IMG/VR virus record: IMGVR_UViG_3300017818_000007
Coordinates: 1-64,000 of that record
Source of the DNA: a virus
Strand: one strand, 5' to 3'
Length of the DNA: 64,000 bases
Made by a program: the position numbers and the translations under genes. The notes below the pieces were generated by a model. It did not search any database. It had not been told where the DNA came from and saw only the letters and a list, made by a program, of their open reading frames with translations. Each line of letters starts with the position of its first letter. Position 1 is the stretch's first letter. Shown in pieces: positions 731-63,770 of this stretch.

Positions 731-1121
731 GTGTGTGTACAGCGTATGTTATAAAGTCACGCACAGTGTATATATAACGTTCCAAATCAACAAACAGATC
801 CCTATTGTATAGTCGTTCAGTTGTTAAACGACTGTAGGCCATACGTCCAATCTCTGTCTTGTAGTTGCGTTGTGCTACACCTGGATATACACCTGTAAGC
901 CAAAGAGCACTGTCACCCAACAGTTTAGCACCTGTACTGCCTTCCATTTCCATTATGCTTTCTGCATAGGTTTTGCGTGGTTGGAGGCCGTCTGTCATGC
1001 GTTCTGCTAGGATCATTACAGTGTATGCTTTAAGGTGATATGGCAGTGTTAAACCTGTACGATTTTCCGTGTCTTGCACGAGATTGGTGAAAGCATCGAT
1101 GTAGTGTGCATCGGTTCCCAT
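720..1121 (-). CDS. Hypothetical protein (133 aa)
   Basis: No family recognised. The protein looks soluble and mostly helical (MGTDAHYIDAFTNLVQD...), with several aromatic residues near the C-terminus. It has no Shine-Dalgarno. Instead a late-promoter box (CATAAATA) ends exactly five bases before the ATG, predicting a leaderless late transcript. It converges on the 81-residue gene to the left. Confidence 0.6.
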   Translation of the reverse strand: MGTDAHYIDAFTNLVQDTENRTGLTLPYHLKAYTVMILAERMTDGLQPRKTYAESIMEMEGSTGAKLLGDSALWLTGVYPGVAQRNYKTEIGRMAYSRLTTERLYNRDLFVDLERYIYTVRDFITYAVHTPNL

Positions 1122-1126
1122 AATAG

Positions 1127-1134
1127 TATTTATG
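1127..1134 (-). promoter_or_regulatory. Late promoter, leaderless type
   Basis: CATAAATA with five bases to the ATG of the leftward 133-residue gene. T4 late boxes place the transcript start about six bases after the box, which here falls on the A of ATG. Confidence 0.6.
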
Positions 1135-1294
1135 GTGGGAGTAAAAGTTTTGACCGCTAACCGCTACGCGGATTGCGTTGCTCTACCGCTACTGCTTCGC
1201 AGTCTAGAAAAAATTTCCGCGGACGCTTCGCTTGTTTTTGGCTGTTTTGAGCCTATTTCACGGTGTATATGCTTCAGTGTTTTAAATACTTGTA

Positions 1295-1393
1295 CGAGTT
1301 GTTTATTTGAGAGATCAACACACACTCAGTATGTACGTTGCGGTGACACCGTTAAATAGAATTAGGTTGTATAAAACTTCAATAAACAACTCG
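1295..1393. repeat. 13-bp inverted repeat, 73 bp apart
   Basis: CGAGTTGTTTATT at 1295-1307 is the exact reverse complement of 1381-1393. A TTAAATA box lies between the arms. It could be a protein-binding site pair or the ends of a lost insertion. Confidence 0.5.
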
Positions 1394-1460
1394 ATCTACA
1401 TACACTAGGCTAAATACAGTCTATAAGTTAAACAGTCTGTTTACTATACACCCGCACTAG

Positions 1461-1468
1461 ATTAAATA
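1461..1468 (+). promoter_or_regulatory. Late promoter box
   Basis: ATTAAATA, 21 bases before the ATG of the next gene, with an AGGAGG ribosome binding site in between. A second box, CTAAATA, lies about 45 bases further upstream. Confidence 0.5.
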
Positions 1469-1489
1469 ATTATATAGGAGGGTGTTATT

Positions 1490-1750
1490 ATGAAAACCCT
1501 AATCATACTATTCATAAGCGTTTGTGTTAACACAGACTGCGTATGGTTTGAAATACAAGATCCAGTGTTTGAATCACCTGAACAGTGCATAGAAGCAGGT
1601 GGTAGAACAGCACAAGAGTTGCAAGAAGCAATGCCTTACTCTAGTGGTGAAATACACTGTGTACCTGAAGATAGTATAGATGATTTTAAAGAATATCTTG
1701 AACAACGAGGATATAGATTAAACCCCAAAGAGACCGGCATTAAAGTATAA
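1490..1750 (+). CDS. Small cysteine-containing protein with signal-like N-terminus (86 aa)
   Basis: The first ~14 residues (MKTLIILFISVCVN) are hydrophobic and resemble a short signal peptide. An acidic body follows with cysteines near residues 12, 17, 33 and 57. A strong AGGAGG precedes the ATG, and a late box lies just upstream. The layout (hydrophobic start, Cys, then an F...E.C..A stretch and a further Cys) resembles the 73-residue leftward protein a few hundred bases away, so the two may be distant paralogs acting in the periplasm. No function is known. Confidence 0.65.
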   Translation: MKTLIILFISVCVNTDCVWFEIQDPVFESPEQCIEAGGRTAQELQEAMPYSSGEIHCVPEDSIDDFKEYLEQRGYRLNPKETGIKV

Positions 1751-1776
1751 TAATAAAAACCGGTTTTATCAATTTA

Positions 1777-1932
1777 ATGAAGAATAAAAAACGTACCAAT
1801 CCGCGTGAACGCATACGTGTTCTACAAGAACAAATACGCAAAACACTCGACACATATGACCGAGAAAGACTAGAACAAGAACTGTTCCACTGGCAACAGG
1901 TTGTTAATCGTAAACCTCAATCGGACTCGTGA
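1777..1932 (+). CDS. Small charged protein (51 aa)
   Basis: An ATG-initiated frame encodes a strongly charged helical peptide (MKNKKRTNPRERIRVLQEQI...) with alternating Arg/Glu heptad-like spacing, suggesting a short coiled coil. It follows the secreted-type gene by 26 bases and overlaps the tail of the convergent gene by 29 bases. No good Shine-Dalgarno is visible. The composition is protein-like rather than random, but no family is recognised. Confidence 0.5.
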   Translation: MKNKKRTNPRERIRVLQEQIRKTLDTYDRERLEQELFHWQQVVNRKPQSDS

Positions 1933-2125
1933 CCCAAACATAATTGTGTTCAAAACCCTGTGGTAGCATCACATAGTCTTGGTGTAGGCAACTCATGCCA
2001 CCGTACTGTTCGCTTAATACAAGATCGTAATAGGTTTGTGCTTGTTCGCAGTTGCGGAATGTTCCTATATAGGTATCGCAACACTGCTCCCATGCCAGGC
2101 TCACTGTGAGTATAAACTCCAGCAT
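1904..2125 (-). CDS. Small cysteine-containing protein (73 aa)
   Basis: It starts with a weakly hydrophobic segment (MLEFILTVSLAWEQCC), followed by TFRNCEQAQTYYDLV and a later Cys. The ATG has a good TGGAG ribosome binding site, and an AATAAATA late box lies 32 bases upstream. It resembles the rightward 86-residue protein in size, hydrophobic start and cysteine layout. An overlapping leftward frame in another phase is a shadow. Function is unknown, and export to the periplasm is a guess. Confidence 0.6.
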   Translation of the reverse strand: MLEFILTVSLAWEQCCDTYIGTFRNCEQAQTYYDLVLSEQYGGMSCLHQDYVMLPQGFEHNYVWVTSPIEVYD

Positions 2126-2156
2126 GGCTGTTCTCCATAATGGTTATTGGTGTGTT

Positions 2157-2164
2157 TATTTATT
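2157..2164 (-). promoter_or_regulatory. Late promoter box
   Basis: AATAAATA on the minus strand. The predicted transcript start leaves a ~26-base leader holding the ribosome binding site of the 73-residue gene. Confidence 0.45.
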
Positions 2165-2181
2165 TTGTGCATACCACCTAT

Positions 2182-2490: not shown

Positions 2491-2498
2491 TTTAAATA
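2491..2498 (+). promoter_or_regulatory. Late promoter, leaderless type
   Basis: TTTAAATA with exactly five bases to the ATG of the nitrilase gene. It supports that ATG over a longer upstream reading of the same frame. Confidence 0.6.
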
Positions 2499-2503
2499 CT
2501 TGT

Positions 2504-3274
2504 ATGACGCAGTTAACAGCCACACAGATTCCTATTACACAAGACCTTGACACCAATGTTGAAACATTAATTTCTCTTATTGACAACAGTCAGGGTTTTG
2601 TGTTAACGGGTGAAGGTAGTCTAAGTGGATACTTTGCTCCTCCTGTAATTAATCAATGCAACAACTTTACAGAACTAAGCAGTGCAGAAAGATATGTAGT
2701 AGGTCACGCAACCACACAAGGTGTACATCTATTACTAGGAACTGGTTGGATGGAACCAGATGGTATGCCCTACAATCAAGTAAGGATATATCACAATGGG
2801 TTTCAAGGTGCTTATTCAAAACGTCTACTCACAACTACTCTACAAGGTGGTGGAGAACGTAATGCTTACATACCTGGTTTTTCAAATAGTGTGTTTCCTC
2901 TAAACGACAGCACACTTGCAGGAGTATTGATCTGCAACGACATATGGGCAACACCTAGTGTGAGTCCAAATGGTAATCCCTATTATGTAAATGAATATGC
3001 ACAGCAAGGTGTTCGTGTATTGTTTTGTAGTGTTAACTGTAATGTAGGTGGGCGTGTTAGTTGGGATCCTGTAATCTATACGTGGCATGAAAATCATCTA
3101 CAGATGTATGCTAAAACATTTGGAATGTACATTGTGGTAAGTGGTAGCAGTTTATCAATGACTGGCGAGCCTATAGAAAAACTACAATGTCCATTAGGTA
3201 TCATTGGTCCTGACGGCGAGTGGATAGAAAAACTAGAACTTGGTCAAACGTCTTGTACCACTAAAATTCAATAA
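2504..3274 (+). CDS. Carbon-nitrogen hydrolase (nitrilase superfamily)
   Basis: The protein is about 256 residues, the usual size for a single nitrilase-fold domain. The family's catalytic triad is visible in order: Glu37 in LTGEGSLSGY, Lys106 in AYSKRLL and Cys144 in VLICNDIW. The N-terminus (TATQIPITQDLDTNVETL) matches the usual first strand and helix. Members cleave nitriles, amides or carbamoyl groups; the substrate here is unknown. The frame stays open upstream to 2408, but I chose the ATG at 2504 because it aligns with the family start and has a late box five bases before it. It is a likely accessory metabolic gene expressed late. Confidence 0.85.
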   Translation: MTQLTATQIPITQDLDTNVETLISLIDNSQGFVLTGEGSLSGYFAPPVINQCNNFTELSSAERYVVGHATTQGVHLLLGTGWMEPDGMPYNQVRIYHNGFQGAYSKRLLTTTLQGGGERNAYIPGFSNSVFPLNDSTLAGVLICNDIWATPSVSPNGNPYYVNEYAQQGVRVLFCSVNCNVGGRVSWDPVIYTWHENHLQMYAKTFGMYIVVSGSSLSMTGEPIEKLQCPLGIIGPDGEWIEKLELGQTSCTTKIQ

Positions 3275-3277
3275 ATA
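3270..3277 (+). promoter_or_regulatory. Late promoter, leaderless type
   Basis: AATAAATA with five bases to the next ATG. The box overlaps the stop codon of the nitrilase gene. Confidence 0.6.
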
Positions 3278-3282
3278 TTACT

Positions 3283-3828
3283 ATGGACATGACTGGAAGA
3301 CTACTAGTATCACAACCCACGAGTAAATCGGAATTCTTTAAAGAAAGCGTTATACTCTTAGTGCAACACGACGAACGTGGGGCATGGGGTATACAGATTA
3401 ATAAACCTTTAGATACGTTGTCAATTAAAGATGTAATTACAGATCCTGAGGTGGGTATTACAAACGATACCAAATGTTATCTTGGCGGACCTGTAGAGCA
3501 ACAGGCAATACATCTATTGCATTCAAGTGATTGCGTTATGAGTAATAGTTTGCCTATTACAGATACGCTTACAATTACAAGCAATGCTACAATGTTTAAA
3601 GAAATGGAAATGGGCAGAGGCCCTAGTAAATGGATTTGTACACTAGGTATGTGTACGTGGGCACCAGGACAACTAGATGGTGAAATGAGAGGTGAACATC
3701 CTTGGACACCTCAGCATCAATGGTTAGACACTGCTATACCAAAGGATTTACTTGATAGAAATCCTCGTATGCTATGGAAAGAGTGTGTTAAAACCTGTGT
3801 AGAAAATGCTACATCAACCTTCTTTTAA
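3283..3828 (+). CDS. YqgE/AlgH family protein (UPF0301)
   Basis: The sequence follows the DUF179 pattern. GRLLVSQP is near residue 5, then FKESVILLVQHDERGAWGIQ and INKPLDTLSI, LGGPVEQQAIHLLHSS near residue 68, and a C-terminal G.CTWAPGQLDGEM...WTPQ segment. The bacterial family is small, widespread and of uncertain function, and AlgH has been linked to alginate regulation. It is rarely expected in a phage. It has no Shine-Dalgarno, and a late box sits five bases before the ATG. Identification as the family is firm; the role is not. Confidence 0.85.
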   Translation: MDMTGRLLVSQPTSKSEFFKESVILLVQHDERGAWGIQINKPLDTLSIKDVITDPEVGITNDTKCYLGGPVEQQAIHLLHSSDCVMSNSLPITDTLTITSNATMFKEMEMGRGPSKWICTLGMCTWAPGQLDGEMRGEHPWTPQHQWLDTAIPKDLLDRNPRMLWKECVKTCVENATSTFF

Positions 3829-3829
3829 C

Positions 3830-10903: not shown

Positions 10904-10932
10904 ATTTTACGATCTTACGAGGACTTTGTCAA
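10904..10932 (-). promoter_or_regulatory. Sigma70-type promoter of primase operon
   Basis: Minus strand TTGACA, 17-base spacer, TAAAAT, with the predicted transcript start on or next to the primase ATG. The box lies inside the 3' end of the upstream structural gene. Confidence 0.75.
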
Positions 10933-11713
10933 GTGTTCCGGTGTTCGAAATGGAAGGAATATGTTTAATTCTTAGCCAACTATATACTCCATTTACATTT
11001 ATATAATTGGTTTCTGTAGAATTAGATAGTGCTACACTTTTAACTTCAACCCAATCTGTTCCATTACTAGGTTGTACATCAAGTGTTGCTTCAACGTATA
11101 AAGTTCCGTCATATCCAGTAGTTTCATATTGGATAGTATGCAATGGGTTTGCTCTTTTAAATCTTGCATTTGCATCAATATGACTGCTTGTGTATGTTGT
11201 GATATTTGTATCATAATCTGTAATACCACTAAACGTTGTAATACTATCGCTTTCAGTGTGCGTAGTAAAGCAGTTGTCTACAATAGCAATTCTACCACAA
11301 GCATCATGATATGTGTTCGTATATGTAGGTTTCTGAACATTATTTACTGTACGTTTGATAGAAAATCTATAAGTTTGTGATACTAGATCAACAGTATCGC
11401 TTTCGCTTAAATCTATTGTAATAACACCTTTAGTAGAACGTGTACTTCCGTCATCGACAACAGTCATCGACTTATTTAAAAACGTTGATCCTGTTTCCTT
11501 GTCTAGCAACATAAATGTGAATGTGTTTCCTGAACTAATGTCAATAGGTTTTTGGTCTTGATTTTTGACCGTAAATTTAAGGGTATTTGACACCCCCTTA
11601 AACACTTTTAAATCGCTTTGATACATAGGTGCATATCCTTGTTCTACTCCGGAGTCCAAATCACTGTAAATGGTACTACCGGTTTCATAAATATATATTG
11701 GTACTTTGAGCAT
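10907..11713 (-). CDS. Putative virion structural protein (268 aa)
   Basis: A beta-sandwich-type protein. Residues ~35-140 (DLKVFKGVSNTLKFTVKNQD...) look like the domain found in baseplate upper or receptor-binding proteins, and residues ~190-268 form a second beta domain. A perfect T4-late TATAAATA box lies 21 bases upstream, separated by a GTAGGATG-type leader. Late expression plus composition support a virion role; which part is not clear. Confidence 0.55.
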   Translation of the reverse strand: MLKVPIYIYETGSTIYSDLDSGVEQGYAPMYQSDLKVFKGVSNTLKFTVKNQDQKPIDISSGNTFTFMLLDKETGSTFLNKSMTVVDDGSTRSTKGVITIDLSESDTVDLVSQTYRFSIKRTVNNVQKPTYTNTYHDACGRIAIVDNCFTTHTESDSITTFSGITDYDTNITTYTSSHIDANARFKRANPLHTIQYETTGYDGTLYVEATLDVQPSNGTDWVEVKSVALSNSTETNYINVNGVYSWLRIKHIPSISNTGTLDKVLVRS

Positions 11714-27766: not shown

Positions 27767-28567
27767 TTATTTTCCTTCTTTCCCGTAATCGTCGCTTACA
27801 CCTATACGACTTATATCATCTTCAATACAATTATCACCGTATTGTATTTCAATAATTCTTAACGGCTTTTTTGTTTTATTTTCTAATTGGTGCCATTCCC
27901 CAACGCCTATATTTAATTTATCAAATCTATTAAGCGTATCCATTTCTTCTAAGTCAGTTGAGCCGTCAATAGTATTAACTGTTGCAGTTCCTTCACTTAC
28001 AAACCATAGTTCGTTTCTGTGTTTATGTTTTTGCATACTCAACCGTTTACCCGGATCGACTGTAAGTTCTTTTAATTTAACTTCGTTGCCAACACCAAAT
28101 AAAACTCTGTAATATCCCCATGGGCGTTCAGTTTTAGGATACTTATAATCTTCTAGTATCCAACTGCTTGAATTCTTTTTATCACTGCCGCCTACACCAA
28201 ATTGAAATGATAGTCTACTATCGTCAATTAACATCTCAGGAATGTTTGTTTTAGTTCTATCTCCACCATTAGCAAAGATAACACTATCGCTTAAAAAGTT
28301 GTGTTCGTTAAGTACTTGCTGAATAGCATCGTTAGCAGTGTTATCGCTATCGTCAAAATCAATAACTTTGTCAACTACTGAAAGGTTTTCAATAATAGTT
28401 GCACGTTCCTCAAAAGGCATAAATGGCTTGCCTTTTTTACGTGTTAACCAATCATCTGAGTTAACACCAACAACTAGATAATCTCCTAGTTCTTTTGCGG
28501 CTTTAAAATAGGCAATGTGTCCTGAGTGTAAAGGATCAAAGCCTCCTGTGACTAATACTATCTTCAT
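27767..28567 (-). CDS. Cytidylyltransferase-cupin fusion
   Basis: Residues ~1-135 are a nucleotidyltransferase of the HldE C-terminal/TagD type, with LVTGGFDPLHSGHIAYF (HxGH site) and GVNSDDWLTRKKG. Residues ~145-260 are a cupin like the C-terminal part of ManC mannose-1-phosphate guanylyltransferases (ERPWGYYRVLF, KHKHRNELWFVSEG, GEWHQLENKTKKP). Fusing these two is unusual and suggests one enzyme that isomerises or binds a hexose/heptose phosphate and activates it. A late box lies five bases before the ATG. It heads the leftward sugar operon. Confidence 0.85.
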   Translation of the reverse strand: MKIVLVTGGFDPLHSGHIAYFKAAKELGDYLVVGVNSDDWLTRKKGKPFMPFEERATIIENLSVVDKVIDFDDSDNTANDAIQQVLNEHNFLSDSVIFANGGDRTKTNIPEMLIDDSRLSFQFGVGGSDKKNSSSWILEDYKYPKTERPWGYYRVLFGVGNEVKLKELTVDPGKRLSMQKHKHRNELWFVSEGTATVNTIDGSTDLEEMDTLNRFDKLNIGVGEWHQLENKTKKPLRIIEIQYGDNCIEDDISRIGVSDDYGKEGK

Positions 28568-28572
28568 GTTAA

Positions 28573-28580
28573 TATTTATT
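28573..28580 (-). promoter_or_regulatory. Late promoter, leaderless type
   Basis: AATAAATA with five bases to the ATG of the cytidylyltransferase-cupin gene, and no Shine-Dalgarno. Confidence 0.6.
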
Positions 28581-35584: not shown

Positions 35585-35589
35585 ATATG

Positions 35590-35597
35590 TATTTATA
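35590..35597 (-). promoter_or_regulatory. Late promoter, leaderless type (perfect TATAAATA)
   Basis: A perfect T4-late consensus five bases before the chosen ATG of the 688-residue gene. Confidence 0.65.
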
Positions 35598-35600: not shown

Positions 35601-37190
35601 TTAGAAAGAAACAAACACCGGCATTGGTGTTATCATTTCTGTGTCTAAGTCCTTCATTTTCTCGTAAATTGCTGGATCCCAATCCGCTAATATTTGTTGC
35701 ATTCGAACGTTAAGCAATGTAGCACTAACAAGGTCATCGTGTTCCCCTGTCTTAGCACCAAATGTAGTGCCGTGTGCTACATATGCTTTAAGTTCTGAAA
35801 TAAGCGGTTTACTTTTAATTTTTAGTTTGCTTGTTTCTAGCAAGTGCTTAAATTTAGCACAAGCACTCATTTTAGTTTTGTGTGTTGTATTAAATCCTTT
35901 TCTAAACTTTCGCACATGGCCTTTTCTAATAGGCTCACTCAAAAACATACCGTAAATGTTTTCTTCACCGTAGTCATTGATGGTCACTAGTGCGGCTTCG
36001 CCTATGGCGTTATTTTCGACTGAATAATACACCTGAGGCAAACTGCCAGACAGTTCTTCGCATTGTTCTTTTATATTTTTTGTTATATCTGCTAATATCC
36101 TGACTTGCCCTTGGATAGGTGTAGTGTTGTGTTGCCACTCTGCTACTTGTTCAAAAGTAGGTAATTCAAATACTTGAATTGCCGCATAGTCTCCTCCTGT
36201 ACCTAAACTTGGGTCCATACTTACAACATACGTCATCTTAGGATTACAATCTTTATACCACCTAGTCTGACCCATTCTTTTTGAAGGTTCTAAACCTTCA
36301 AGTTCTGCAAGTCGAACACTGTTGATTAATGTTTCGTCAAAGATTAAGAATTCACATTCGTGTTCTCGACGGAAACGTTCTTCACCAATACGTGATTTTT
36401 CTTCAGCCGCCCATTGATCATCTCGATCTGGATGTTCACTCCAATGAGCAGTAAACGCATAAAAGCCATTGATACCAACTTCAGTATCATTACCATGTTC
36501 GTCAAATCTTTTTGTTGCTTCAGTCCAAATAAGTGCAAATTGATCTTCGTCACTGTTTGGTGTTGAAGTAATAATTGCTTTACCACCTGTTGCTAGTGTA
36601 GGTGAAATAGCAGTCCAGAATTCTTTAGCAATAGTAGGATTAACGAATGCAAACTCATCACAGTATAGTAAAGATATTGACATACCTCGTCCCGTGTTGT
36701 CTGTGGTTGTTTGTGATACAATACGTGATCCGTTATCAAATTCCATTGATCCCTTGTTATACGATACAACACCGCAACGTATATGATCTGGACAGTCTTC
36801 ATATGCATATCTTATTCTATGCATGATTTCTTGAGCGCCTGCATACTTGTGTGCCGCAATAAGCACAGTCACATCAGGGTTAAACATTGCGTACCATAAT
36901 AGATATCCTGCCGCCGTTGTAGACTTACCTGTCTGTCTTGGTAGCATATTAATATTAAATCTATAACTGTGATATGAATCTACAAGTCTTTCTTGGAATT
37001 CAAAAGGTTGAAACAACAACTTACCTTTAGTAGGATGTTGAATGTAAAAGAAGTTATCCATAAAGTACTTGGGTCCAGTAGTTGGATCCATGCAGGCTTT
37101 AAGGTCTTCAATTTGTTCTTTTGTATATCTTGTCTTACTGTGTGCTTTTTTAACTAGTACACCGTCAAGACTTTTTCCTGTCTGTGCCAT
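35601..37190 (-). CDS. 17: Terminase large subunit (T4 gp17)
   Basis: The ATPase-nuclease motor that packages DNA into the prohead. Walker A PRQTGKST is at residues 84-91 and Walker B LLYCDEF at 174-180. The nuclease domain begins with Asp326 (SMDPSLGTGGD), with ENNAIGE and GEHDDLVSA near the C-terminus supplying further acidic ligands. Length 529 is typical. It lacks a Shine-Dalgarno and has ACTAAATA five bases before its ATG. Confidence 0.95.
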   Translation of the reverse strand: MAQTGKSLDGVLVKKAHSKTRYTKEQIEDLKACMDPTTGPKYFMDNFFYIQHPTKGKLLFQPFEFQERLVDSYHSYRFNINMLPRQTGKSTTAAGYLLWYAMFNPDVTVLIAAHKYAGAQEIMHRIRYAYEDCPDHIRCGVVSYNKGSMEFDNGSRIVSQTTTDNTGRGMSISLLYCDEFAFVNPTIAKEFWTAISPTLATGGKAIITSTPNSDEDQFALIWTEATKRFDEHGNDTEVGINGFYAFTAHWSEHPDRDDQWAAEEKSRIGEERFRREHECEFLIFDETLINSVRLAELEGLEPSKRMGQTRWYKDCNPKMTYVVSMDPSLGTGGDYAAIQVFELPTFEQVAEWQHNTTPIQGQVRILADITKNIKEQCEELSGSLPQVYYSVENNAIGEAALVTINDYGEENIYGMFLSEPIRKGHVRKFRKGFNTTHKTKMSACAKFKHLLETSKLKIKSKPLISELKAYVAHGTTFGAKTGEHDDLVSATLLNVRMQQILADWDPAIYEKMKDLDTEMITPMPVFVSF

Positions 37191-37195
37191 ACTAA

Positions 37196-37203
37196 TATTT
37201 AGT
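37196..37203 (-). promoter_or_regulatory. Late promoter, leaderless type
   Basis: ACTAAATA with five bases to the terL ATG. Confidence 0.65.
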
Positions 37204-39498: not shown

Positions 39499-39993
39499 TT
39501 ATTCCCCTGATTGTCTTTCTTTTGCTTCTTTAGCAAGACTTTGTAAAAACGTTTCTTTACCTTTTTCTGTGACAACTAACTCATCTTTATTAACATCAGG
39601 TGCATCTTTGTATTCTGGATCACCAAGTTTTGCTTCGTATGGCTTATTGTCTGATTCTTTTTGCATTTCCTCATAGTCTTCACCTGGCTTACGAACTCTT
39701 AAGTTCTCAACACTTACATTACAGAAATTTGCAATGTAATGTCTTAGGTGATCCTGTGTTGTAGGATAGTTTAAAGTAGTTTCATAAACTGTGACTTCTG
39801 AGTTTGGATTTTGTGGAAAGTCTAAAGGTAAACTTTGAATAGGAGTTTTTTTACCTGAAGATAGATTAGCAATTTCAAACTTTTTAAGTGCAGTTTCTAA
39901 ACGGTCGTCAAACCCTTCAGGTAATTCGCCCGCCAGTTTAATAACAAAATCGTATTGTTTTGATGCTTCTGCAAGATACTTTTTAAAATCCAT
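39499..39993 (-). CDS. Conserved virion/assembly-type protein (164 aa)
   Basis: The N-terminal part (MDFKKYLAEASKQYDFVIKL...) followed by TPIQSLPLDFP and YETTLNYPTTQDHLRHYIAN resembles a conserved protein of marine T4-like phages near packaging genes. The C-terminal third is charged and probably unstructured. AGGAG precedes the ATG, and a GATAAATA box lies ~23 bases upstream. No function is known. Confidence 0.6.
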   Translation of the reverse strand: MDFKKYLAEASKQYDFVIKLAGELPEGFDDRLETALKKFEIANLSSGKKTPIQSLPLDFPQNPNSEVTVYETTLNYPTTQDHLRHYIANFCNVSVENLRVRKPGEDYEEMQKESDNKPYEAKLGDPEYKDAPDVNKDELVVTEKGKETFLQSLAKEAKERQSGE

Positions 39994-40014
39994 GTTAACT
40001 CCTAATATATACAG

Positions 40015-40506
40015 TTATTTATCTTCTTTCTTATTTAAAATCTCTTCTATGAGCGAGTTGCGATCTATGATAATGCCCTCACTATCAACAGTATTAGCGC
40101 CATCGCCCATTTTTTGGTCTAATGATTGCTTTTTAAGTTGTAATTCAATCATTTTTAACTTTTTATCCATTTTTTGGCTCTTAGCATCAATAGCATTTTT
40201 AAGCATAGTACCTGCTACTTCAAAAATACGTCCTGCATAGCGGCTTTCTACATTCATACCCAGATCCATTAGATCTTCATATGTAGTTTTGGCTTTATCT
40301 GCTAGTTCATCTAGTTCTTTATCTGCTAATTCACCAAGTCCTTTAACCATAGGAAGTGCCGCCGATATTTTATCAAACTCTGCAATGCTACGTTCCATTT
40401 GTTTGGTTTGTTTAATTGTATTAACGTCTGGAGCAGGTTCTTCAACTTGTTCCATTGTTTCTTTAACTTCTGGAAGTTCTAACAACTCTTCTAGTTTCTT
40501 TGTCAT
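40015..40506 (-). CDS. 16: Terminase small subunit (gp16-like)
   Basis: A 163-residue helical protein. The N-terminal LEELLELPEVKETM and the long central coiled coil (YEDLMDLGMNVESRYAGRIF..., KLKMIELQLKKQSLDQKM) match the layout of T4-type small terminases, which form a ring and regulate gp17. It is encoded upstream of gp17 but separated by three genes. Confidence 0.75.
   Translation of the reverse strand: MTKKLEELLELPEVKETMEQVEEPAPDVNTIKQTKQMERSIAEFDKISAALPMVKGLGELADKELDELADKAKTTYEDLMDLGMNVESRYAGRIFEVAGTMLKNAIDAKSQKMDKKLKMIELQLKKQSLDQKMGDGANTVDSEGIIIDRNSLIEEILNKKEDK
40016..40023 (-). promoter_or_regulatory. Late promoter box
   Basis: GATAAATA, about 22 bases before the 164-residue gene and overlapping the end of the small-terminase gene. 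Confidence 0.4.
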
Positions 40507-41347: not shown

Positions 41348-42484
41348 CTATTTTACAGATTCTGTACTTGCAGTAGACGAACTGTTATTTGTACCTGCGT
41401 TATTATTTAATTGTCCGGGTTGAGTTCCTGAAGGATTACCGGCTTCTGCTTTAGTACGTTTTGCTTGATCAAACTTGTCAGCACCTTTTTGATCTAAAGT
41501 TTGTCTTGCAGTATTAGTTAAACTTTGTTCAGTAATAGCAGTGACTTCTCTTTTGATGCCTTCTTTAGTTAAATTTTTAGCATTGTCAATAGTATTTTTT
41601 GCTTTAATAGCAGTACCAATAAAAGCAAAAGGATCAGCGAATGCAGAACCATCTGAGATACTACCAAAAACATCTAAGCCGCCAGCAAGTACTCCATTAG
41701 CACCAAACAGTCCTCCACTACCTCCGCCCATTACACTTAATGGACTTGGTGTTCTATCATAATGCAGTGTTGCAAATCCTGTAGGATTATCTGTTGTAAT
41801 TCTACCTGTTGCATATTTTACACCTTCATAGATCACAGTCATTTGATTTTCTGCAGGCTGTGAACTTCCAGCACTCATGCTTGGTGGATCCCAACTTTGT
41901 ATCATTGGATTAATTAATGTAAATTCAAAAAATCTATGTCTACTTAATTGATAAATGCTTACACCTTCGTTTTGGAAAAAGTTTACATTTCTATCACTGT
42001 TTAAACCAAACTTAACATATTGTTCTGAATTTTGATAAGGTGTTTGCTTATAAAGTTCCTGCCAATATAAACTGTCGTTGTAGTTTGCTTTAAAATACTG
42101 TTGCCAAAATGCACTTGTTAATCCGTCATTATCATCATGAAAGTTAATTGTGACTGGTGCATATGTGACTGCTGTTTGATAATTTGTTTTTTTACCGTAT
42201 TGATTTTTTGTATCTGTTTGTACCTGTATTCCCGGAAGTTTTACATCTTTAACTAGCATACCACATTCAATTTGTGGACTTGCTTTATTAAAAATACCGT
42301 CAGGTGATCTTAGTGCCGCATTTTGTATATTAAATGTGACATGATATAAAAATTGTACTTTTGGTGCAAGACGCATATAGTCGTCAGTGAACAAACGAGC
42401 CGCGTGTTGATAATCACGCATATCGCCTTCACTACCAAAAATACCTCCGAAAACATTTCCTAAAAATTTTGTTAACTTGGCCAT
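41348..42484 (-). CDS. Baseplate/tail-tube junction protein (gp48/gp54-like)
   Basis: A 378-residue protein. Residues ~45-260 (PKVQFLYHVTFNIQNAAL..., PLSVMGG) have the tube-like beta fold pattern of T4-type tail-tube initiator proteins. The C-terminal ~100 residues are helical, then a low-complexity Asn/Ser/Thr tail. It follows the tail tube gene after a terminator, with its own late box five bases before the ATG. The choice between gp48 and gp54 is not possible by eye. Confidence 0.55.
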   Translation of the reverse strand: MAKLTKFLGNVFGGIFGSEGDMRDYQHAARLFTDDYMRLAPKVQFLYHVTFNIQNAALRSPDGIFNKASPQIECGMLVKDVKLPGIQVQTDTKNQYGKKTNYQTAVTYAPVTINFHDDNDGLTSAFWQQYFKANYNDSLYWQELYKQTPYQNSEQYVKFGLNSDRNVNFFQNEGVSIYQLSRHRFFEFTLINPMIQSWDPPSMSAGSSQPAENQMTVIYEGVKYATGRITTDNPTGFATLHYDRTPSPLSVMGGGSGGLFGANGVLAGGLDVFGSISDGSAFADPFAFIGTAIKAKNTIDNAKNLTKEGIKREVTAITEQSLTNTARQTLDQKGADKFDQAKRTKAEAGNPSGTQPGQLNNNAGTNNSSSTASTESVK

Positions 42485-42489
42485 ACTAT

Positions 42490-42497
42490 TATTTAGT
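42490..42497 (-). promoter_or_regulatory. Late promoter, leaderless type
   Basis: ACTAAATA with five bases to the ATG, placed just after the terminator of the tail tube gene. Confidence 0.65.
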
Positions 42498-42500: not shown

Positions 42501-42535
42501 AAAAAAAGGCCGGCGATTTTTACGTCACCGACCTT
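42501..42535 (-). terminator. Strong intrinsic terminator after gp19
   Basis: In the minus-strand sense, AAGGTCGGTGA pairs fully with TCGCCGGCCTT (11 bp, with G-U pairs) around an eight-base loop, followed by seven T. It ends the tail tube transcript 19 bases after its stop. Confidence 0.85.
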
Positions 42536-42553: not shown

Positions 42554-43180
42554 TTAACCAGTTGCTAAAGTTCTAATTGTTCTGCCAATTGCGCCGCCTA
42601 AGCCGCTTGGTTGACCAGCACCATTAGTTTGGATAGCATTATCATACTGAATCTGTAGTTGAATATCAACTGGATTTGAATCACTGTATGCTAATTGGTT
42701 GTAGTTAATGTCTTGTACAAAGCAACCTACTAACTCGAAGGTTTCTAATACGCTAGGAGCATTCGCGCCATTACCACCATCAAGTATTTCGATTCTACCT
42801 TTAAATTTGTAATCAACACCACTTGCCGCACTTGACTGTTCGAAGAAGTCGAACTGCTTCTGTAGTTGCTCACCACACAGTTTGTTAACTGAGTTGTTCA
42901 CATCGTCACGTAGTGTAATTGTAATTGGTTGCCATGTATGTTTACCTGCGTAAAACACTTTTGAGTTGTATACGTCAATTGCAACAGACTCAAAGTTTAC
43001 GTTAGGTCTTGTGACATCAATTACCTGCTTTGTTAATTCTACTGTTGGACTTCCAGCACCAAAGTTTTCAAGTGATACTCTAAAGCGATACTTTAGTTTT
43101 GGCATCAACAAGCCTTGTGTACTTGCTGATTGGTCACTTGCTAATGGAACTGTAAATCTACTTAAACTTGAAATTGCCAT
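42554..43180 (-). CDS. 19: Tail tube protein (T4 gp19)
   Basis: A 208-residue protein with LMPKLKYRFRVSLENFGAG near residue 25, the tube-forming beta segments (VIDVTRPNVNFESVAIDVYN, HTWQPITITLRDDVNNSVN) and ETFELVGCFVQDINYNQLAY near residue 144. These fit the gp19 family. It is flanked by the sheath gene upstream and a terminator downstream, allowing very high expression. AAGGAGCAAGATA precedes the ATG, with a GATAAATA box ~23 bases upstream. Confidence 0.9.
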   Translation of the reverse strand: MAISSLSRFTVPLASDQSASTQGLLMPKLKYRFRVSLENFGAGSPTVELTKQVIDVTRPNVNFESVAIDVYNSKVFYAGKHTWQPITITLRDDVNNSVNKLCGEQLQKQFDFFEQSSAASGVDYKFKGRIEILDGGNGANAPSVLETFELVGCFVQDINYNQLAYSDSNPVDIQLQIQYDNAIQTNGAGQPSGLGGAIGRTIRTLATG

Positions 43181-43202
43181 TATCTTGCTCCTTTTACAGT
43201 TT

Positions 43203-43210
43203 TATTTATC
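43203..43210 (-). promoter_or_regulatory. Late promoter box of gp19
   Basis: GATAAATA with a 22-base gap to the tail tube ATG that includes AAGGAG. Together with the terminator it gives gp19 its own transcription unit. Confidence 0.55.
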
Positions 43211-46200: not shown

Positions 46201-46562
46201 CCTTCTAGTTGACCTAGGTCTACATCCGCTCTTACTACATACGCTCTGTTAGCCACTCCAAGATATGAATAAGCCGCTTGTAAACCATACTCGTTTAATT
46301 CATTTCCGTGTAGTGGGTTATTAGATGAGTCTGTGTAGAAAGTCGGATTACCAAAAGTTTCTGTCAACTCTCTTTGACTTGTAATTAGGTATACTTTGTT
46401 CTTGTTGGCCGCAGTAGTGCCTGCCGCAGTTCCTGTTCCTGTGCCAGATGGTTTGCTTTCAGCAGTTGCGACAACAATTAAAGGTGTTGTTGCACCGGCG
46501 GCAGGGGTATAGAAACTTTCGTCAATTACACTTACTTCAACGCCTGGTGATGATAGTGCCAT
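43215..46562 (-). CDS. 18: Tail sheath protein (T4 gp18), greatly enlarged
   Basis: Contractile sheath subunit. The C-terminal region is typical (FITGSGIVNFGQVTRARN, NVARLTAYLRRQLNLLAKPF, LYDFLVVCDETNNTPSRIDR), as is the N-terminal SPGVEVSVIDES. At 1115 residues it is far longer than T4's 659. The extra length is surface modules: three DG.yW..T....... W-type repeats (about residues 125-160, 582-615, 637-677) and two homologous ~80-residue inserts (about 240-330 and 470-550). AAGGAGAATAGAAC precedes the ATG. Confidence 0.93.
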   Translation of the reverse strand: MALSSPGVEVSVIDESFYTPAAGATTPLIVVATAESKPSGTGTGTAAGTTAANKNKVYLITSQRELTETFGNPTFYTDSSNNPLHGNELNEYGLQAAYSYLGVANRAYVVRADVDLGQLEGDTDAPAGAPADGTYWFDTDDTLYGLFQWNGSTQTFANKTPTVISSSSDLTGVSGATYTGIKGSVGAIGDYAVVVWNTENKIWYKNEDNVWVQAGTYDESAFDAVGFDTATTWTSTTWKTSWPTITATLTPSALGSTNVIINNTQVNNAGATPATFVQAINDASIPGVGAKLDSNDRVKIYSDGTSSTDGTTTDGAILIEEGSGTILTDLGIDAGYYHSPEVQISAHSSVPLWRATDRVEIAGSSYSGLRPTGSLYIKTTEPNVGASWKVKLYSSGTGLFSTVEAPIYNTRAEAIKALDSEGGQNIPTGTVFVLANTTEDTKPLADFKLYRRLVPSPTSATTGTANPTIGAGTKTFTISETTANSDTFTSSGVSFTGTDIDSFVEAISSAGLTNVTATVTADGKAKISHTLGGEIRLKDGSGTPLAQIGVSSSLDNVYDAGSESSDDFVISNWKPLSYEASAGAPTSDPEDGTLWYNTNLDEVDIMVHNGTTWRGYINVYSESDPEGPIISATEPTQQSDGTSLVNGDLWIDTGDTETYGQKIYKYDGLNLEWVAVDTTDQTSEDGILFADARFGKTGATGDTKADITDMLTSDYLDPDAPDPALYPRGMLLWNTRRSGNNVKIFRTTHIDINENSGKNKRFEGTGSTFNGGSEESMASYKVNRWVGWNTTAEDGSGLFGRKAQRKTVVAAMKSIVDTNDDIRDEETRAYTLLSAPGYPELTSNLVSLNIDRGITGFVVADTPFRLKASATELQAWGNNSANALADGEDGFLTFDEYMATFYPSGFTTDLNGNNIVVPPSHMMLRTIALSDQVSFPWFAPAGTRRGGISNASSVGYINSESEFTPVSLNDGVRDTMQSAKMNPITFITGSGIVNFGQVTRARNASALDRINVARLTAYLRRQLNLLAKPFLFEPNDKITRDEIKQAAESLLLELVGQRALYDFLVVCDETNNTPSRIDRNELYLDVAIEPVKAVEFIYIPLRLKNTGEIATLGAQ

Positions 46563-46602
46563 GTTCTATTCTCCTTGTATGGTTTAATTCTATATCTAAA
46601 TG

Positions 46603-46610
46603 TATTTATG
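46603..46610 (-). promoter_or_regulatory. Late promoter box of gp18
   Basis: CATAAATA, leaving a ~35-base leader with AAGGAG before the sheath ATG. The opposing box for the rightward HNH-like gene lies 57 bases away. Confidence 0.5.
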
Positions 46611-46666: not shown

Positions 46667-46674
46667 GTTAAATA
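46667..46674 (+). promoter_or_regulatory. Late promoter, leaderless type
   Basis: GTTAAATA with five bases to the ATG of the HNH-like gene. It decides that start over one five codons earlier. Confidence 0.6.
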
Positions 46675-46679
46675 CAGTT

Positions 46680-47018
46680 ATGAGTAGACCTTTATGTAAA
46701 CAATGCCGGAAACGTCCTGTTGCTATTAACTACTACAAGGGCAAAAAAGCATACTATAGAAGCAAGTGTGACCACTGTGCTAGTGGTAGGGCATCAGGTA
46801 TACCACTTTGGAAACAAGCAGGGTATGAACAAAAAGAAAAATGTGATAAGTGCGGGTTTACTAGTAAGCACAAAGAACAGTTTAACGTGTATCATATAGA
46901 TGGAAACTTATCCAACTGTAGACACAGTAATTTAAAAACTATATGTGCTAATTGTCAAAGATTATTGCAAATGCAGGGTGCTATTTGGAAACAGGGAGAC
47001 CTAACACCTGATTTCTAA
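46680..47018 (+). CDS. HNH/zinc-ribbon nuclease-like protein (112 aa)
   Basis: It has several Cys pairs: CKQC near residue 6, CDHC near 30, CDKC near 57 and CANC near 91. The segment FNVYHIDGNLSNCRHSNLKTI followed by CANCQ is the HNH pattern. It may be a homing-type or structural-gene-associated nuclease lacking a DNA-target domain. The start at 46680 is supported by the late box and by the family-like beginning MSRPLCKQC. It overlaps the dNMP kinase gene by 38 bases, tail to tail. Confidence 0.75.
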   Translation: MSRPLCKQCRKRPVAINYYKGKKAYYRSKCDHCASGRASGIPLWKQAGYEQKEKCDKCGFTSKHKEQFNVYHIDGNLSNCRHSNLKTICANCQRLLQMQGAIWKQGDLTPDF

Positions 47019-47708: not shown

Positions 47709-48470
47709 TTAGCCAATTATGAACGATAATGGTGTAGAACCATCAACATAATTTGCCAAATCTTGCTCTAATTTTTCAATATCACCTTGTGCATCTGCTT
47801 TAAGGGCATCACCATTTAAACTAGTGCCGCCTTGAGGAGTTGCGATTGTTGCAAATTTACCACGTGCTTCACCAATCATATATTTGCAAGTTGCTAGAGT
47901 ATAATCTTTTAACCATTGTCCTGCATAGGGATCACCTAGTAGAACAAAATCTGGTCTTTTATTATACACTGCTAACATCACAGACTCAGCACCCCGTGGT
48001 CTTTGCATAATTGTTAGTTTGTGGTTTACAGGATCAAATTTAAAGTTAATGAATGAGCCAAACATTTTACCTACAAGTTCTTGATAACCAGCAAAAGCAA
48101 AGTATGTTGCTAGTCCTCCCATTTGTGTTGAACTTAATAGATAGGTATTTGTGTATGCAAGGTTAAATGGTTCAAATACAGTACCACCTTGTCCGCCACC
48201 GCTTCTTGATCCAATACTTCTGCGGAATACTTCTTTTACACTTTGAATCTCATCAGGTAAAATATAGTCATTTGTATCTTCCTGAAGTTCTAAAAATGCG
48301 TATGATTCTTCTACAGAATTCTCTGCTCTTTGTCTATATTTGCCTAATGCTTTTTCTAATGCAACTTCATAGTGATCAACGTCAAGTTCAACATCAATCA
48401 TGCCATCACCTAGCATTTTGCCAACATAGTTAAAAAGTTTTGCTTTTGCGGTATCTAATTGTGTGCTCAT
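47709..48470 (-). CDS. 13: Neck protein (gp13-like)
   Basis: A 253-residue protein. The N-terminal FNYVGKMLGDGMIDVELDVD followed by YEVALEKALGKYRQRAENSV and ILPDEIQSVKEVFRRSIG resembles T4-type gp13, which binds the portal and joins head to tail. It is divergent from the gp14-like gene. It has no Shine-Dalgarno; AATAAATA lies five bases before the ATG. Confidence 0.7.
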   Translation of the reverse strand: MSTQLDTAKAKLFNYVGKMLGDGMIDVELDVDHYEVALEKALGKYRQRAENSVEESYAFLELQEDTNDYILPDEIQSVKEVFRRSIGSRSGGGQGGTVFEPFNLAYTNTYLLSSTQMGGLATYFAFAGYQELVGKMFGSFINFKFDPVNHKLTIMQRPRGAESVMLAVYNKRPDFVLLGDPYAGQWLKDYTLATCKYMIGEARGKFATIATPQGGTSLNGDALKADAQGDIEKLEQDLANYVDGSTPLSFIIG

Positions 48471-48475
48471 GTAAT

Positions 48476-48483
48476 TATTTATT
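48476..48483 (-). promoter_or_regulatory. Late promoter, leaderless type
   Basis: AATAAATA with five bases to the gp13-like ATG. It is 13 bases from the opposing gp14 box. Confidence 0.65.
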
Positions 48484-48496: not shown

Positions 48497-48504
48497 AATA
48501 AATA
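48497..48504 (+). promoter_or_regulatory. Late promoter box of the gp14-gp15 operon
   Basis: AATAAATA with eight bases to the gp14 ATG and no Shine-Dalgarno, so the predicted leader is only about three bases. Together with the gp13 box it forms a compact divergent late promoter. Confidence 0.6.
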
Positions 48505-48512
48505 CATTTGTT

Positions 48513-49628
48513 ATGCCAAGATTGAGTTTATACAAACCAGAGAAATCCGCTGACTATCGCTTTATAGATAAGAACATATATGAAGCATTTCAGATCGGCG
48601 GTACAGACATATTTGTACACAAATACGAAGGCCCTGTTGAGCCAGGCGTAGGTACACCTGCAGAACCAAAAGGTGTTAGTGATATACCTGAAACAAAAAT
48701 ACAAGATTTGCTATTTTTAGAAAATAGAGATAGAAAATATTCCGACGATGTATATACACTTCGTGGAATTTACAATGTGCAAGATTTAGACTTTGATTTA
48801 TCACAGTTTGGTTTATTTTTACAAAACGATACTGTGTTTATTACATTTCACTTAAACAAGAGTGTTGAAGCAATTGGTAGAAAACTAATGAGTGGCGATG
48901 TTTTAGAATTGCCTCACTTAGTAGATGATTACGCATTAAACGATTTTCAAGTATCACTAAAACGCTTTTATGTTATTGAAGATATAAGTCGTCCAAGTGA
49001 AGGATTTTCACAAACTTGGTATCCACATTTATTACGTGCAAAATGTAAACCTATTATGGATAGTCAAGAATTTAAAGATATTTTTGACAAAGAATCAGGT
49101 GAAGAAGGTAAGACATTACGTGATGTGCTTTCAACATACGAAAAAGAAATGCAAATCAACGAACAAGTTATTGCACAAGCAGAAGCAGACGCACCAAAAA
49201 CAGGATACGATACAGAAGAATTTTTTGTTGTTCCAACTGATGATGCAGGTGATGTAAATATTAAAGATGACGGAGTAAACACTCCTACACTACAAACACC
49301 GGGCGGAAATTATTATATTGCATATGGTGGCGGCGATGGTTTACCTGCTAATGGTTCACCATATACATTTGGTACTTCATATCCAAATAGTCCTGCTAAA
49401 GGTGCATACCATTTAAGAACAGATTACTATCCTAATAGACTGTTTAGATATGATGGCAATCATTGGATTAAAGTTGAAGATGGAGCAAGAATGAGCCTTA
49501 CAAATACAGTTCAAAACAGTTATGTCACTGACTTTGTTAATGAAGATGCAACTAGAACTGAAGATGGACAAACAAAAAATGTACGTACTGCATTAAGTGA
49601 AGCACTTAAACCGGAGGCAGATAATTAA
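48513..49628 (+). CDS. 14: Neck protein (gp14)
   Basis: A 371-residue protein beginning MPRLSLYKPEKSADYRFIDK, with KIQDLLFLENRDRKYSDDVY near residue 65, LSQFGLFLQNDTVFITFHLN near 90, and LMSGDVLELPHLVDDYAL then SEGFSQTWYPHLLRAKCKP. These match marine T4-like gp14. The start is placed here, 18 codons inside an upstream frame, because of the family start and promoter box. The C-terminal ~130 residues, ending in a YHLRTDYYPNRLFRYDG..W module, are extra to T4. Confidence 0.88.
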   Translation: MPRLSLYKPEKSADYRFIDKNIYEAFQIGGTDIFVHKYEGPVEPGVGTPAEPKGVSDIPETKIQDLLFLENRDRKYSDDVYTLRGIYNVQDLDFDLSQFGLFLQNDTVFITFHLNKSVEAIGRKLMSGDVLELPHLVDDYALNDFQVSLKRFYVIEDISRPSEGFSQTWYPHLLRAKCKPIMDSQEFKDIFDKESGEEGKTLRDVLSTYEKEMQINEQVIAQAEADAPKTGYDTEEFFVVPTDDAGDVNIKDDGVNTPTLQTPGGNYYIAYGGGDGLPANGSPYTFGTSYPNSPAKGAYHLRTDYYPNRLFRYDGNHWIKVEDGARMSLTNTVQNSYVTDFVNEDATRTEDGQTKNVRTALSEALKPEADN

Positions 49629-62288: not shown

Positions 62289-62289
62289 A

Positions 62290-63294
62290 CTATGCCCCAA
62301 ACACTATCGAATAAACAATGTCAGCAGAGTCAACATATTCTCTAGTTGTCACTGATTGTGGATCACTTGATCTTGTAATATTCTCTGACATTAATAATTC
62401 TGTAAATTTTCCTGTAGAAGGTTTACCCGCTCCTATTCTAGTATTTTCAATTGATGTATTCACAACTGGTAAATTGCTACCAGAGGAAGTAATTCTTCCT
62501 TGTTCAATATCGTTAACAGTAAACACAACAGCATTACCTGCTTTAAATTCTAAATTAGACTGAGATTCTAATGTTGGCTCACCCGCTGAATCAATTTTAA
62601 AACTTTTTGCAATAACATTTCCGCCAACAAATAAGTCTTTTGCAATACCTACGCCGCCAGCAGTAATTAATGATCCAGTAGTAGGACTTGTTGACTGTGT
62701 AGTATTTGTTAGTGTTAATTGTCCACTTTGAGAAATATTTGCATTAACAGCAAGGTCATCTCTAAATTCACTAGTTCCAGTGACTAATAAACTAGTAAAA
62801 CTACCAATACCTGTAATTTCTGGATCTACAAAAACAAAATCGCCTCGAATAGCATTTGCTACATCAGCATAATAATATCCACTTGCAGTTGCAGGAACTA
62901 CCCATTCAACATATCCATCTTGTTTATTATGTGCTAAATTACCTGTAGAAACAGTACCGTCTTTAACGTGTTGAATATCTGCTGTGACTAAGTTATCGTT
63001 TTCGTCTCTAATATTAAAACTAATAGATGTTAGATCTAAATTAAAACGATAAGTTCGGCCTTTTGTTAATGTAATATCTGGATTTCCGTCTGTTCCATCA
63101 ACAGTAAAGTTTCCATTTGATTCACCTATTGCAATTTCAACTGTTGTGAGTGTATCAGAAACCTGTTGAATAATATCTTCAATTGGTGTTTCACTTGATA
63201 AACTTTTTACAGATACATTACCGTCAGCATCAACCGTAAATCCCGGTCCTTTGAAGCCATATTTACTGAAAAATGGATTTAGTGTGACTGCCAT
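62290..63294 (-). CDS. Tail-fibre or baseplate-type structural protein (334 aa)
   Basis: The N-terminus (MAVTLNPFFSKYGFKGPGFT...) carries an attachment region. A middle domain (TLTKGRTYRFNLDLTSISF..., ASGYYYADV) resembles the cupredoxin-like YHYH-type domain seen in marine phage fibres. The following part has Gly/Ser/Thr beta repeats (SLLVTGTSEFRDDLAVNANI, GGVGIAKDLFVGGNVIAKSF) like long fibre shafts. AGGAGATTTTAA precedes the ATG. It overlaps or abuts the protease gene. Confidence 0.65.
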   Translation of the reverse strand: MAVTLNPFFSKYGFKGPGFTVDADGNVSVKSLSSETPIEDIIQQVSDTLTTVEIAIGESNGNFTVDGTDGNPDITLTKGRTYRFNLDLTSISFNIRDENDNLVTADIQHVKDGTVSTGNLAHNKQDGYVEWVVPATASGYYYADVANAIRGDFVFVDPEITGIGSFTSLLVTGTSEFRDDLAVNANISQSGQLTLTNTTQSTSPTTGSLITAGGVGIAKDLFVGGNVIAKSFKIDSAGEPTLESQSNLEFKAGNAVVFTVNDIEQGRITSSGSNLPVVNTSIENTRIGAGKPSTGKFTELLMSENITRSSDPQSVTTREYVDSADIVYSIVFGA

Positions 63295-63313
63295 TTAAAA
63301 TCTCCTATACACA

Positions 63314-63321
63314 TATTTACC
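63314..63321 (-). promoter_or_regulatory. Late promoter box
   Basis: GGTAAATA, 19 bases before the fibre-type gene and its AGGAG. Confidence 0.45.
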
Positions 63322-63337
63322 AAATTGTAGTAAACTG

Positions 63338-63757
63338 TTATACAGGAGGATTAATGGTTTTAAAGTATGTTGCTTGAAATAGCACTTTTGCACCAGCCAT
63401 ATCTGTGCTATCTTCTTCTTGTGGAGTGACAATTAAGTCTACATAAGAGTTATTGACTGTTGCTTTTACTTCCAAAATATGCTGTCCTAGATTACTACGT
63501 CCGTATACGGTTAAATCTGCTGTATTTTTACCTGCTGTGACTATACATTTTATAATTTCTCTATTAAATGTGTCATAGTCAGCAACAATTGAATATTCAA
63601 CAGCACAAAACTCTCCTAAATGCCACCTATCTAATCGTGTTTCAATAGGCAGACCCGCAAGTTTTTGCCACGGGCCTACATATGAAAAATTAGTGCCGTT
63701 TTTGAGAGCAAGTGTGTTTTTTGCACCTTTACTGAAAAAATACTTTAACCATTCCAT
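63338..63757 (-). CDS. Virion structural-type protein (139 aa)
   Basis: A beta-rich protein (MEWLKYFFSKGAKNTLALKN..., LPIETRLDRWHLGEFCAVEY) that resembles small structural proteins beside fibre genes in marine T4-like phages. The C-terminus ends KVLFQATYFKTINPPV. AATAAATA lies five bases before its ATG, and no Shine-Dalgarno is present. Confidence 0.6.
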   Translation of the reverse strand: MEWLKYFFSKGAKNTLALKNGTNFSYVGPWQKLAGLPIETRLDRWHLGEFCAVEYSIVADYDTFNREIIKCIVTAGKNTADLTVYGRSNLGQHILEVKATVNNSYVDLIVTPQEEDSTDMAGAKVLFQATYFKTINPPV

Positions 63758-63762
63758 GTTAG

Positions 63763-63770
63763 TATTTATT
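63763..63770 (-). promoter_or_regulatory. Late promoter, leaderless type
   Basis: AATAAATA with five bases to the next ATG. It overlaps the stop codon of the carbamoyltransferase gene. Confidence 0.65.

Follow-up and report, generated by a model that had tools for sequence, protein, structure and literature searches.

The window analysed here, the first 64,000 bases of the 181,867-base IMG/VR virus record IMGVR_UViG_3300017818_000007, carries a recurrent module in which the hexamer TAAATA stands exactly five bases before an ATG. We consider it highly probable that this module is a late promoter of the phage T4 type fused to the start codon, which would give leaderless mRNAs for one class of late genes. 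In the proposed mechanism TAAATA would form the promoter core at -11 to -6 and be read by the host RNA polymerase carrying a phage sigma factor of the gp55 type, and transcription would begin six bases past the box. In the leaderless class the base at +1 would thus be the A of the start codon, and the mRNA, starting with pppAUG, would be translated without a Shine-Dalgarno (SD) sequence, probably by 70S ribosomes that bind its AUG at the 5' terminus. In a second class the same promoter would lie about 14-42 bases upstream and produce a short leader with an SD. The support consists of a locked spacing, gene-by-gene conservation, a purine mark at +1, upstream terminators in many relatives and a gp55 homologue; from these features we infer that the transcripts start at the ATG, that they are made late and how they are translated. 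The label 'late' is provisional: it draws solely on the presence of the box and on those genes of the set that have structural functions, and several leaderless genes are non-structural.

A search for TAAATA-N5-ATG revealed 11 exact matches in the window, against a mean of 2.24 in 100 dinucleotide shuffles, in which the largest count was 6 and none reached 11. Ten of these modules, distributed over both strands, had been described in a sequence-only reading of the window, which held their fixed spacing to be hard to explain by chance; all ten were located (Table 1) and the shuffles agree with that view. The remaining exact module (11465-11478, minus strand) lies within open reading frame (ORF) 10907-11713 behind seven upstream starts and is probably a chance match, possibly an internal start. 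Across the whole record of the phage, hereafter the window phage, TAAATA-N(d)-ATG occurred 22 times at d=5, compared with a mean of 2.38 and a maximum of 9 at 300 other spacings (d 0-300), so that the count of spacings proposed as a check peaks at five bases. When only ATGs opening an ORF of at least 40 amino acids (aa) were counted, 21 remained at spacing 5 and zero at spacings 0-4, 6 and 7, and a second, broad group of boxes appeared about 18-33 bases before the ATG. Start codons at spacing 5 under the same length limit were 21 ATG and one GTG/TTG.

None of 14 other permutations of the hexamer showed a comparable spacing peak in the whole record; the best were TTAAAA with 10 at spacing 5 (470 sites) and ATAAAT with 8 at spacing 6, which overlaps the box. 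TAAATA itself is depleted, with 126 copies versus 192-470 for these permutations. The window phage also has three TAAGTA-5-ATG sites, and among its 65 gene-linked boxes, counting TAAATA and TAAGTA together, 24 run straight into an ATG. That chance, base composition or mis-called starts produce the module has, in our judgement, next to no probability. The genome is 64% A+T, and four of the 22 sites look accidental, leaving about 18 convincing ones. Two of the four, 11467 and 92469, fall within longer ORFs, which in the case of 92469 is the capsid gene; the ORFs that start at the other two, 152117 and 164860, are 17 and 41 aa long. Against this stand the shuffles, the absence of any other spacing close to the count at spacing 5 and the retention of the pattern in diverged orthologues described below. 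Mis-called starts are contradicted by seven of the ten window ATGs (1121, 3283, 28567, 37190, 42484, 48470, 63757), which are the first possible start (ATG/GTG/TTG) of their frame; for each of 2504, 35584 and 46680 a single alternative start exists upstream. Chance and composition were rejected for the class as a whole on the basis of the shuffles, the permuted hexamers and the other spacings.

Table 1. Boxes, start codons and a terminator-like site in the window, with the genes they precede (positions from the first base of the window)
Element	Positions	Strand	Gene and remarks
TAAATA-CTATT-ATG	1119..1132	-	720-1121, 133 aa, no family match
TAAATA-CTTGT-ATG	2493..2506	+	2504-3274, carbon-nitrogen hydrolase-like; alternative ATG 96 nucleotides (nt) upstream
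TAAATA-TTACT-ATG	3272..3285	+	3283-3828, AlgH-like DUF179; TAA of box is stop of preceding gene
TAAATA-TTAAC-ATG	28565..28578	-	27767-28567, nucleotidyltransferase + cupin; TAA of box is stop of preceding gene
TAAATA-CATAT-ATG	35582..35595	-	33518-35584, virion structural protein family
TAAATA-TTAGT-ATG	37188..37201	-	35601-37190, large terminase (gp17)
TAAATA-ATAGT-ATG	42482..42495	-	41348-42484, tail-tube-related protein
TAAATA-CAGTT-ATG	46669..46682	+	46680-47018, HNH endonuclease-like, between minus-strand genes
TAAATA-ATTAC-ATG	48468..48481	-	47709-48470, head-tail adaptor Ad2
TAAATA-CTAAC-ATG	63755..63768	-	63338-63757; TAA of box is stop of preceding gene
TAAATA-CATTTGTT-ATG, short leader, spacing 8	48499..48515	+	48513-49628, divergent gene
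Box, 22 bases with AAAAGGAG, ATG	43178..43208	-	42554-43180, tail tube
Box, 40 bases with AAGGAG, ATG	46560..46608	-	43215-46562, tail sheath
Box, 19 bases with AGGAG, ATG	63292..63319	-	62290-63294, structural gene
Box, 22 bases with TAGGAG, ATG	39991..40021	-	39499-39993, virion protein
Terminator-like hairpin + T7	42501..42535	-	T run stops 5 bases short of the box of the gene at 42484

Among the ten leaderless genes of the window, no family was matched by 720-1121 and 63338-63757. Beyond the window, the leaderless genes include two baseplate wedge subunits and a protein matching virion and tail-fibre families. Genes beyond the listed ORFs were called with an ad-hoc gene-finder script, which missed those at 1121 and 46680 and includes 11467; it gave 17 called genes with a box at spacing 5. 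The lack of an SD that had been ascribed to the class largely follows from the box occupying -11 to -6; five of the 17 called genes have an SD-like match of 4-6 nt within -19 to -4. The majority of the genes is SD-led, 136 of 162 called module-free genes having an SD-like match of at least 4 nt, with starts chosen to favour SD.

The box also precedes genes with an SD-like leader, among them tail sheath, tail tube and a tail fibre. The second late class proposed earlier, with box, leader and SD, was indeed seen at 43180, 46562, 63294, 60382 and 39993, and the gene at 48513 has the spacing of eight that had been noted. The names gp14, gp18 and gp19 were that reading's own; PHROGs assigns these genes to virion structural protein (48513), tail sheath (46562) and tail tube (43180). 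The major capsid gene has an SD and lacks TAAATA within 60 bases ahead of its start.

According to the account of T4 in PMC2988020, about one helical turn separates the 8-bp late box from +1 downstream of it, and the first two bases of the box are -13 and -12. The box would then span -13 to -6, and +1 would fall on the sixth base past it (box+6). Leadered boxes, taken as those followed by an SD-like tetramer ahead of the ATG, have a purine at box+6 in 24/27 cases in the window phage, 74/92 in relatives, 25/33 in T4 and 9/10 in Syn9, compared with 29/53 at the window phage's own boxes that have no ORF start within 60 bases. The purine share at box+5 is low (10/27 in the window phage, 32/92 in relatives), which distinguishes box+6. 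At the leaderless genes, box+6 coincides with the A of the ATG. Genes at spacing 7 have an A at box+5 in 13 of 14 cases and genes at spacing 8 a purine at box+6 in five of six, which predicts a leader of 3 nt for both; spacing 6 is rare in this set, with four distinct cases. A gp55-type late sigma factor is encoded by an ORF covering 106239-107081 on the minus strand (E 3.8e-82 to phrog_12791, 1.6e-26 to phrog_234). The two bases before TAAATA vary among the window boxes and are not fixed as TA; variants of the late box are known in Aeh1, as mentioned in PMC2988020. The T4-like placement of +1 on the A of the ATG, put forward in the sequence-only reading, is thus supported by the purine at box+6, the spacing lock, the terminators described below and the gp55 homologue.

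To follow the modules in relatives, 80 IMG/VR loci with terminases 67-100% identical to that of the window phage were fetched in a single search seeded with the terminase, which biases the sample towards that region; the terminase box was inspected in 77 of the 80, the remaining three starting within the gene. The start of each orthologue was taken as the nearest ATG, chosen blind to the box, before TAAATA or TAAGTA was scored; alignments starting beyond residue 12 were dropped, and all counts refer to distinct orthologues or upstreams. The terminase has spacing 4-5 in 46 of 50 orthologues, with one at 8 and three without a box. Gene 33518-35584 has it in 38/44 (six at 6-7), gene 41348-42484 in 28/29 (one at 21) and gene 27767-28567 in 13/16; gene 63338-63757 has spacing 5 in 3/3. 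The head-tail adaptor 47709-48470 varies (spacing 5 in three, 22 in two and no box in one of six), and the divergent gene 48513-49628 has spacing 7-8 in 7/7. The boxes of the leadered genes drift: spacing is 18-25 for the tail tube (25/25), 27-41 for the tail sheath (22/22) and 16-32 for the virion protein at 39993 (29/32, three at 7). Where a judgement is possible, the mode thus appears mostly gene-specific, and a nearly fixed spacing appears confined to the leaderless mode; 15 of the 42 boxed genes have no orthologue in the sample and four more have one that is at least 98% identical, and these are uninformative on conservation.

In the terminase alignment the box columns hold 1.0-1.8 bits, compared with 0.0-0.9 in the 19 columns upstream. 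The count of spacings requested by the sequence-only reading peaked at five again in relatives, with 86 boxes at spacing 5, one at 4 and none at 6 in 34 nearer loci, and 61 at spacing 5, 21 at 4, three at 6, ten at 7 and four at 8 in 42 more distant loci. By pattern alone, 12 of 13 IMG/VR relatives, two of them with a terminase 100% identical to that of the window phage, were above the reversed control (97 vs 19 overall), and one had 1 vs 2. In some relatives the terminase box is TAAGTA instead of TAAATA, and the spacing is still 5. Spacing 6 is rare in the distant group, with five of 144 short-spaced boxes versus 26, 87, 16 and 8 at spacings 4, 5, 7 and 8, a pattern that would fit a preference for leaders of 0 or 3 nt rather than 1-2 nt.

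Terminator-like sites, defined as a hairpin (below -6 kcal/mol for the terminase upstreams) and a T run before the box, were found ahead of the terminase box in 24 of 50 distinct upstreams. In all 24, which come from relatives at 66-76% identity, the T run ends three bases before the box, which leaves no room for a leader. More generally, a working terminator would place the 5' end of the mRNA within about 14 bases of the ATG. In the distant group, 32 of 113 boxes at spacing 4-5 are preceded by a terminator (23/87 at spacing 5, 9/26 at spacing 4), with the T run ending 2-7 bases away, compared with 4/172 leadered and 7/669 unplaced boxes. The nearer group has a terminator before 26/112 boxes at spacing 5 versus 0/111 leadered boxes, and the window phage before 2/24 and 1/39, respectively; before leadered boxes it was found in 2/55 cases in T4 and 3/42 in Syn9.

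A search of IMG/VR for the composite CTATTTTTTT-N3-TAAATA-N5-ATG revealed at least 120 stretches; with the same CTATTTTTTT-N3-TAAATA element, spacing 6 gave 21 and spacing 8 gave 24, of which 11 were distinct. Among the spacing-5 matches listed, 102 were distinct, of which 100 open an ORF and 101 have a hairpin; 85 of the 100 ORFs are terminase homologues. The 21 distinct matches at spacing 6 comprise 15 with an open ORF and 12 with a hairpin, and the 11 at spacing 8 comprise ten and nine. The idea that leaders are strictly 0 or 3 nt long was dropped, as five of the 21 spacing-6 matches open ORFs of terminase length (528-530 aa) behind a hairpin.

The terminators bear on an explanation that we consider unlikely, in which the box is a late promoter with minor transcripts, the genes are mainly translated from readthrough mRNA by coupling (termination-reinitiation) and the spacing results from packing. 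The TAA of the box doubles as the upstream stop codon in four of the 17 called genes (3272-3274, 28576-28578, 63766-63768 and record positions 113461-113463), in six more the box begins 2-16 bases past the end of the upstream gene, and most boxes at spacing 5 in the window phage have no terminator before them. However, packing by itself would not fix five bases over three, six or seven, and terminator-like sites separate the box from the upstream gene in many relatives, as well as ahead of the gene at 42484. For the HNH gene at 46680 a likely upstream gene is lacking on its strand, the sole candidate being an ORF of 79 aa that runs antisense to the beginning of the sheath gene, and the gene at 48470 faces a divergent gene.

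Alternatively, TAAATA-N5 might be an AT-rich, unstructured ribosome-binding element on longer mRNAs and no promoter. The box does take the position of an SD, but the same hexamer occurs about 14-42 bases before SD-led genes with a purine mark six bases on, it is depleted as described above, the phage has a gene for a T4-type sigma factor that would read it, and in many relatives the terminators would strip it from readthrough mRNA. We regard this explanation as very improbable.

The leaderless late module is not a general trait of all T4-like phages, an idea that was rejected on 25 isolate records searched by pattern. Only HTVC008M, a cultured Pelagibacter (SAR11) phage of the Kyanoviridae, was clearly above the reversed control (14 vs 4); the other 24 isolates pooled gave 101 vs 104, and the two batches of records 67 vs 57 (13 records) and 48 vs 51 (12 records including HTVC008M). 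No spacing-5 peak was found in T4, Syn9, S-PM2 and RB49. T4 had 10 vs 5 in the control, but only four open an ORF of at least 40 aa, and one that was checked lies inside uvsW; RB49 had 4 vs 0, none opening such an ORF. Melnitz-2 gave 5 vs 3, three with an ORF of at least 40 aa, and Vibrio phage D509 2 vs 0.

In HTVC008M, 12 ORFs of at least 40 aa follow a box at spacing 5, compared with three at most at any other spacing from 0 to 39, and none has an upstream in-frame ATG. In the annotated stretches, 11 of 12 sites are starts of coding sequences (CDS) and one lies inside the DNA polymerase gene, with two further sites elsewhere; the CDS starts include baseplate, tape-measure and head-closure genes, and a late sigma factor is annotated. 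HTVC008M apparently shares the spacing-5 class of the window phage. It differs in being distant, in its mostly GT-initial spacer and in encoding bS21, which was not found in the window phage by a search that matched six of 14 control genomes. RegB, considered along with bS21 as a possible partner in translation, was not found in the window phage either, by a search that matched none of the 14 and so proves nothing. In SAR11 myophages, late-promoter prediction by the method used for cyanophages was unsuccessful, as stated in a passage of PMC7029224; a box within the last 11 bases before the start may, in our interpretation, explain this.

Several observations weigh against leaderless late transcripts as proposed here. 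Since 22 of the 24 spacing-5 boxes of the window phage lack a terminator, readthrough mRNA could also carry these genes. Box+8 is also purine-rich (23/27 in the window phage, 66/92 in relatives), and the leadered boxes of HTVC008M show no distinct purine mark at box+6 (15/21, equalled at two other positions). In raw counts HTVC008M has 14 matches at spacing 5, where the other spacings average 3.69 and reach up to 11. Compared with other genes, the leaderless genes showed neither reduced mRNA structure nor extra A in the first codons. The search for gp33 (phrog_254) gave no match here nor in the control genomes, so that it says little.

Some further features of the leaderless genes were recorded. 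A non-virion pair, carbon-nitrogen hydrolase-like and AlgH-like (DUF179), stands in tandem with leaderless late modules at 2504-3828; the AlgH-like gene was considered as a clue to the host, and no relative was confirmed. Both the window phage (record position 92114, minus strand) and HTVC008M (NC_020484, 75559, plus strand) have a gene predicted to be leaderless immediately behind that of the major capsid protein, and a T-rich stretch precedes its box in both. In HTVC008M the divergent leaderless genes at 18916 (minus strand) and 18943 (plus strand) are separated by 26 bases between their ATGs, which hold both boxes.

Discussion of leaderless translation has mostly concerned hosts, as a habit of theirs, or individual phage genes. 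The window phage, a T4-type virus, appears to use the leaderless mode for a fixed set of late genes including the packaging motor, and SD leaders elsewhere. As a tentative extension, with the odds somewhat against it, many uncultured aquatic T4-like phages of at least two distant lineages (this group and HTVC008M) may operate two regimes of late translation with a single type of promoter, in which abundant proteins (capsid, sheath, tube) are SD-led and scarce ones (terminase, adaptor, baseplate, tape measure) leaderless and, in some lineages, insulated by terminators. The split would fit the gene lists of the window phage and HTVC008M, assuming copy numbers like those of T4. If true, leader design would help to set virion stoichiometry, and late-infection ribosomes would need to favour or tolerate a 5'-terminal AUG. 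The use of leaderless late mRNAs is directly testable because HTVC008M and its host HTCC1062 are both cultured.

Among known systems, the Thermus phage phiYS40 and its host are unrelated to the window phage. A review (PMC3594737) reports that most middle and late mRNAs of phiYS40 lack a leader and that this phage increases IF2 and decreases IF3; its account mentions no T4-type box, unlike what we find in the window phage. A remark in PMC5312081 that phage transcripts are often leaderless indicates that leaderless phage mRNA as such is not new. No earlier report of leaderless T4-type late genes was found in the open-licence literature searched, and what appears to be new is leaderless mRNA produced by T4-type late transcription. 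Bacterial TA-led genes, described in PMC3160421 (BMC Genomics 2011), are recognised as leaderless by a -10-like box that stands about 10-12 bases ahead of the start codon. The module of the window phage shares this sequence logic; however, TA-led genes use a host sigma70 box, whereas the window phage would use a phage late sigma factor and most of its genes are SD-led.

A further comparison is T4 late transcription, which depends on gp55, gp33, the gp45 sliding clamp and TATAAATA late promoters. The window phage shares with it the core of the box and the distance to a purine-preferring +1, encodes a gp55 homologue and has boxes on both strands ahead of structural genes. The T4 box is an 8-bp TATAAATA-like sequence at -13 to -6, whereas the two bases before TAAATA are variable in the window phage, and, unlike the window phage, T4 has no spacing-5 class, with four of 225 boxes at this distance.

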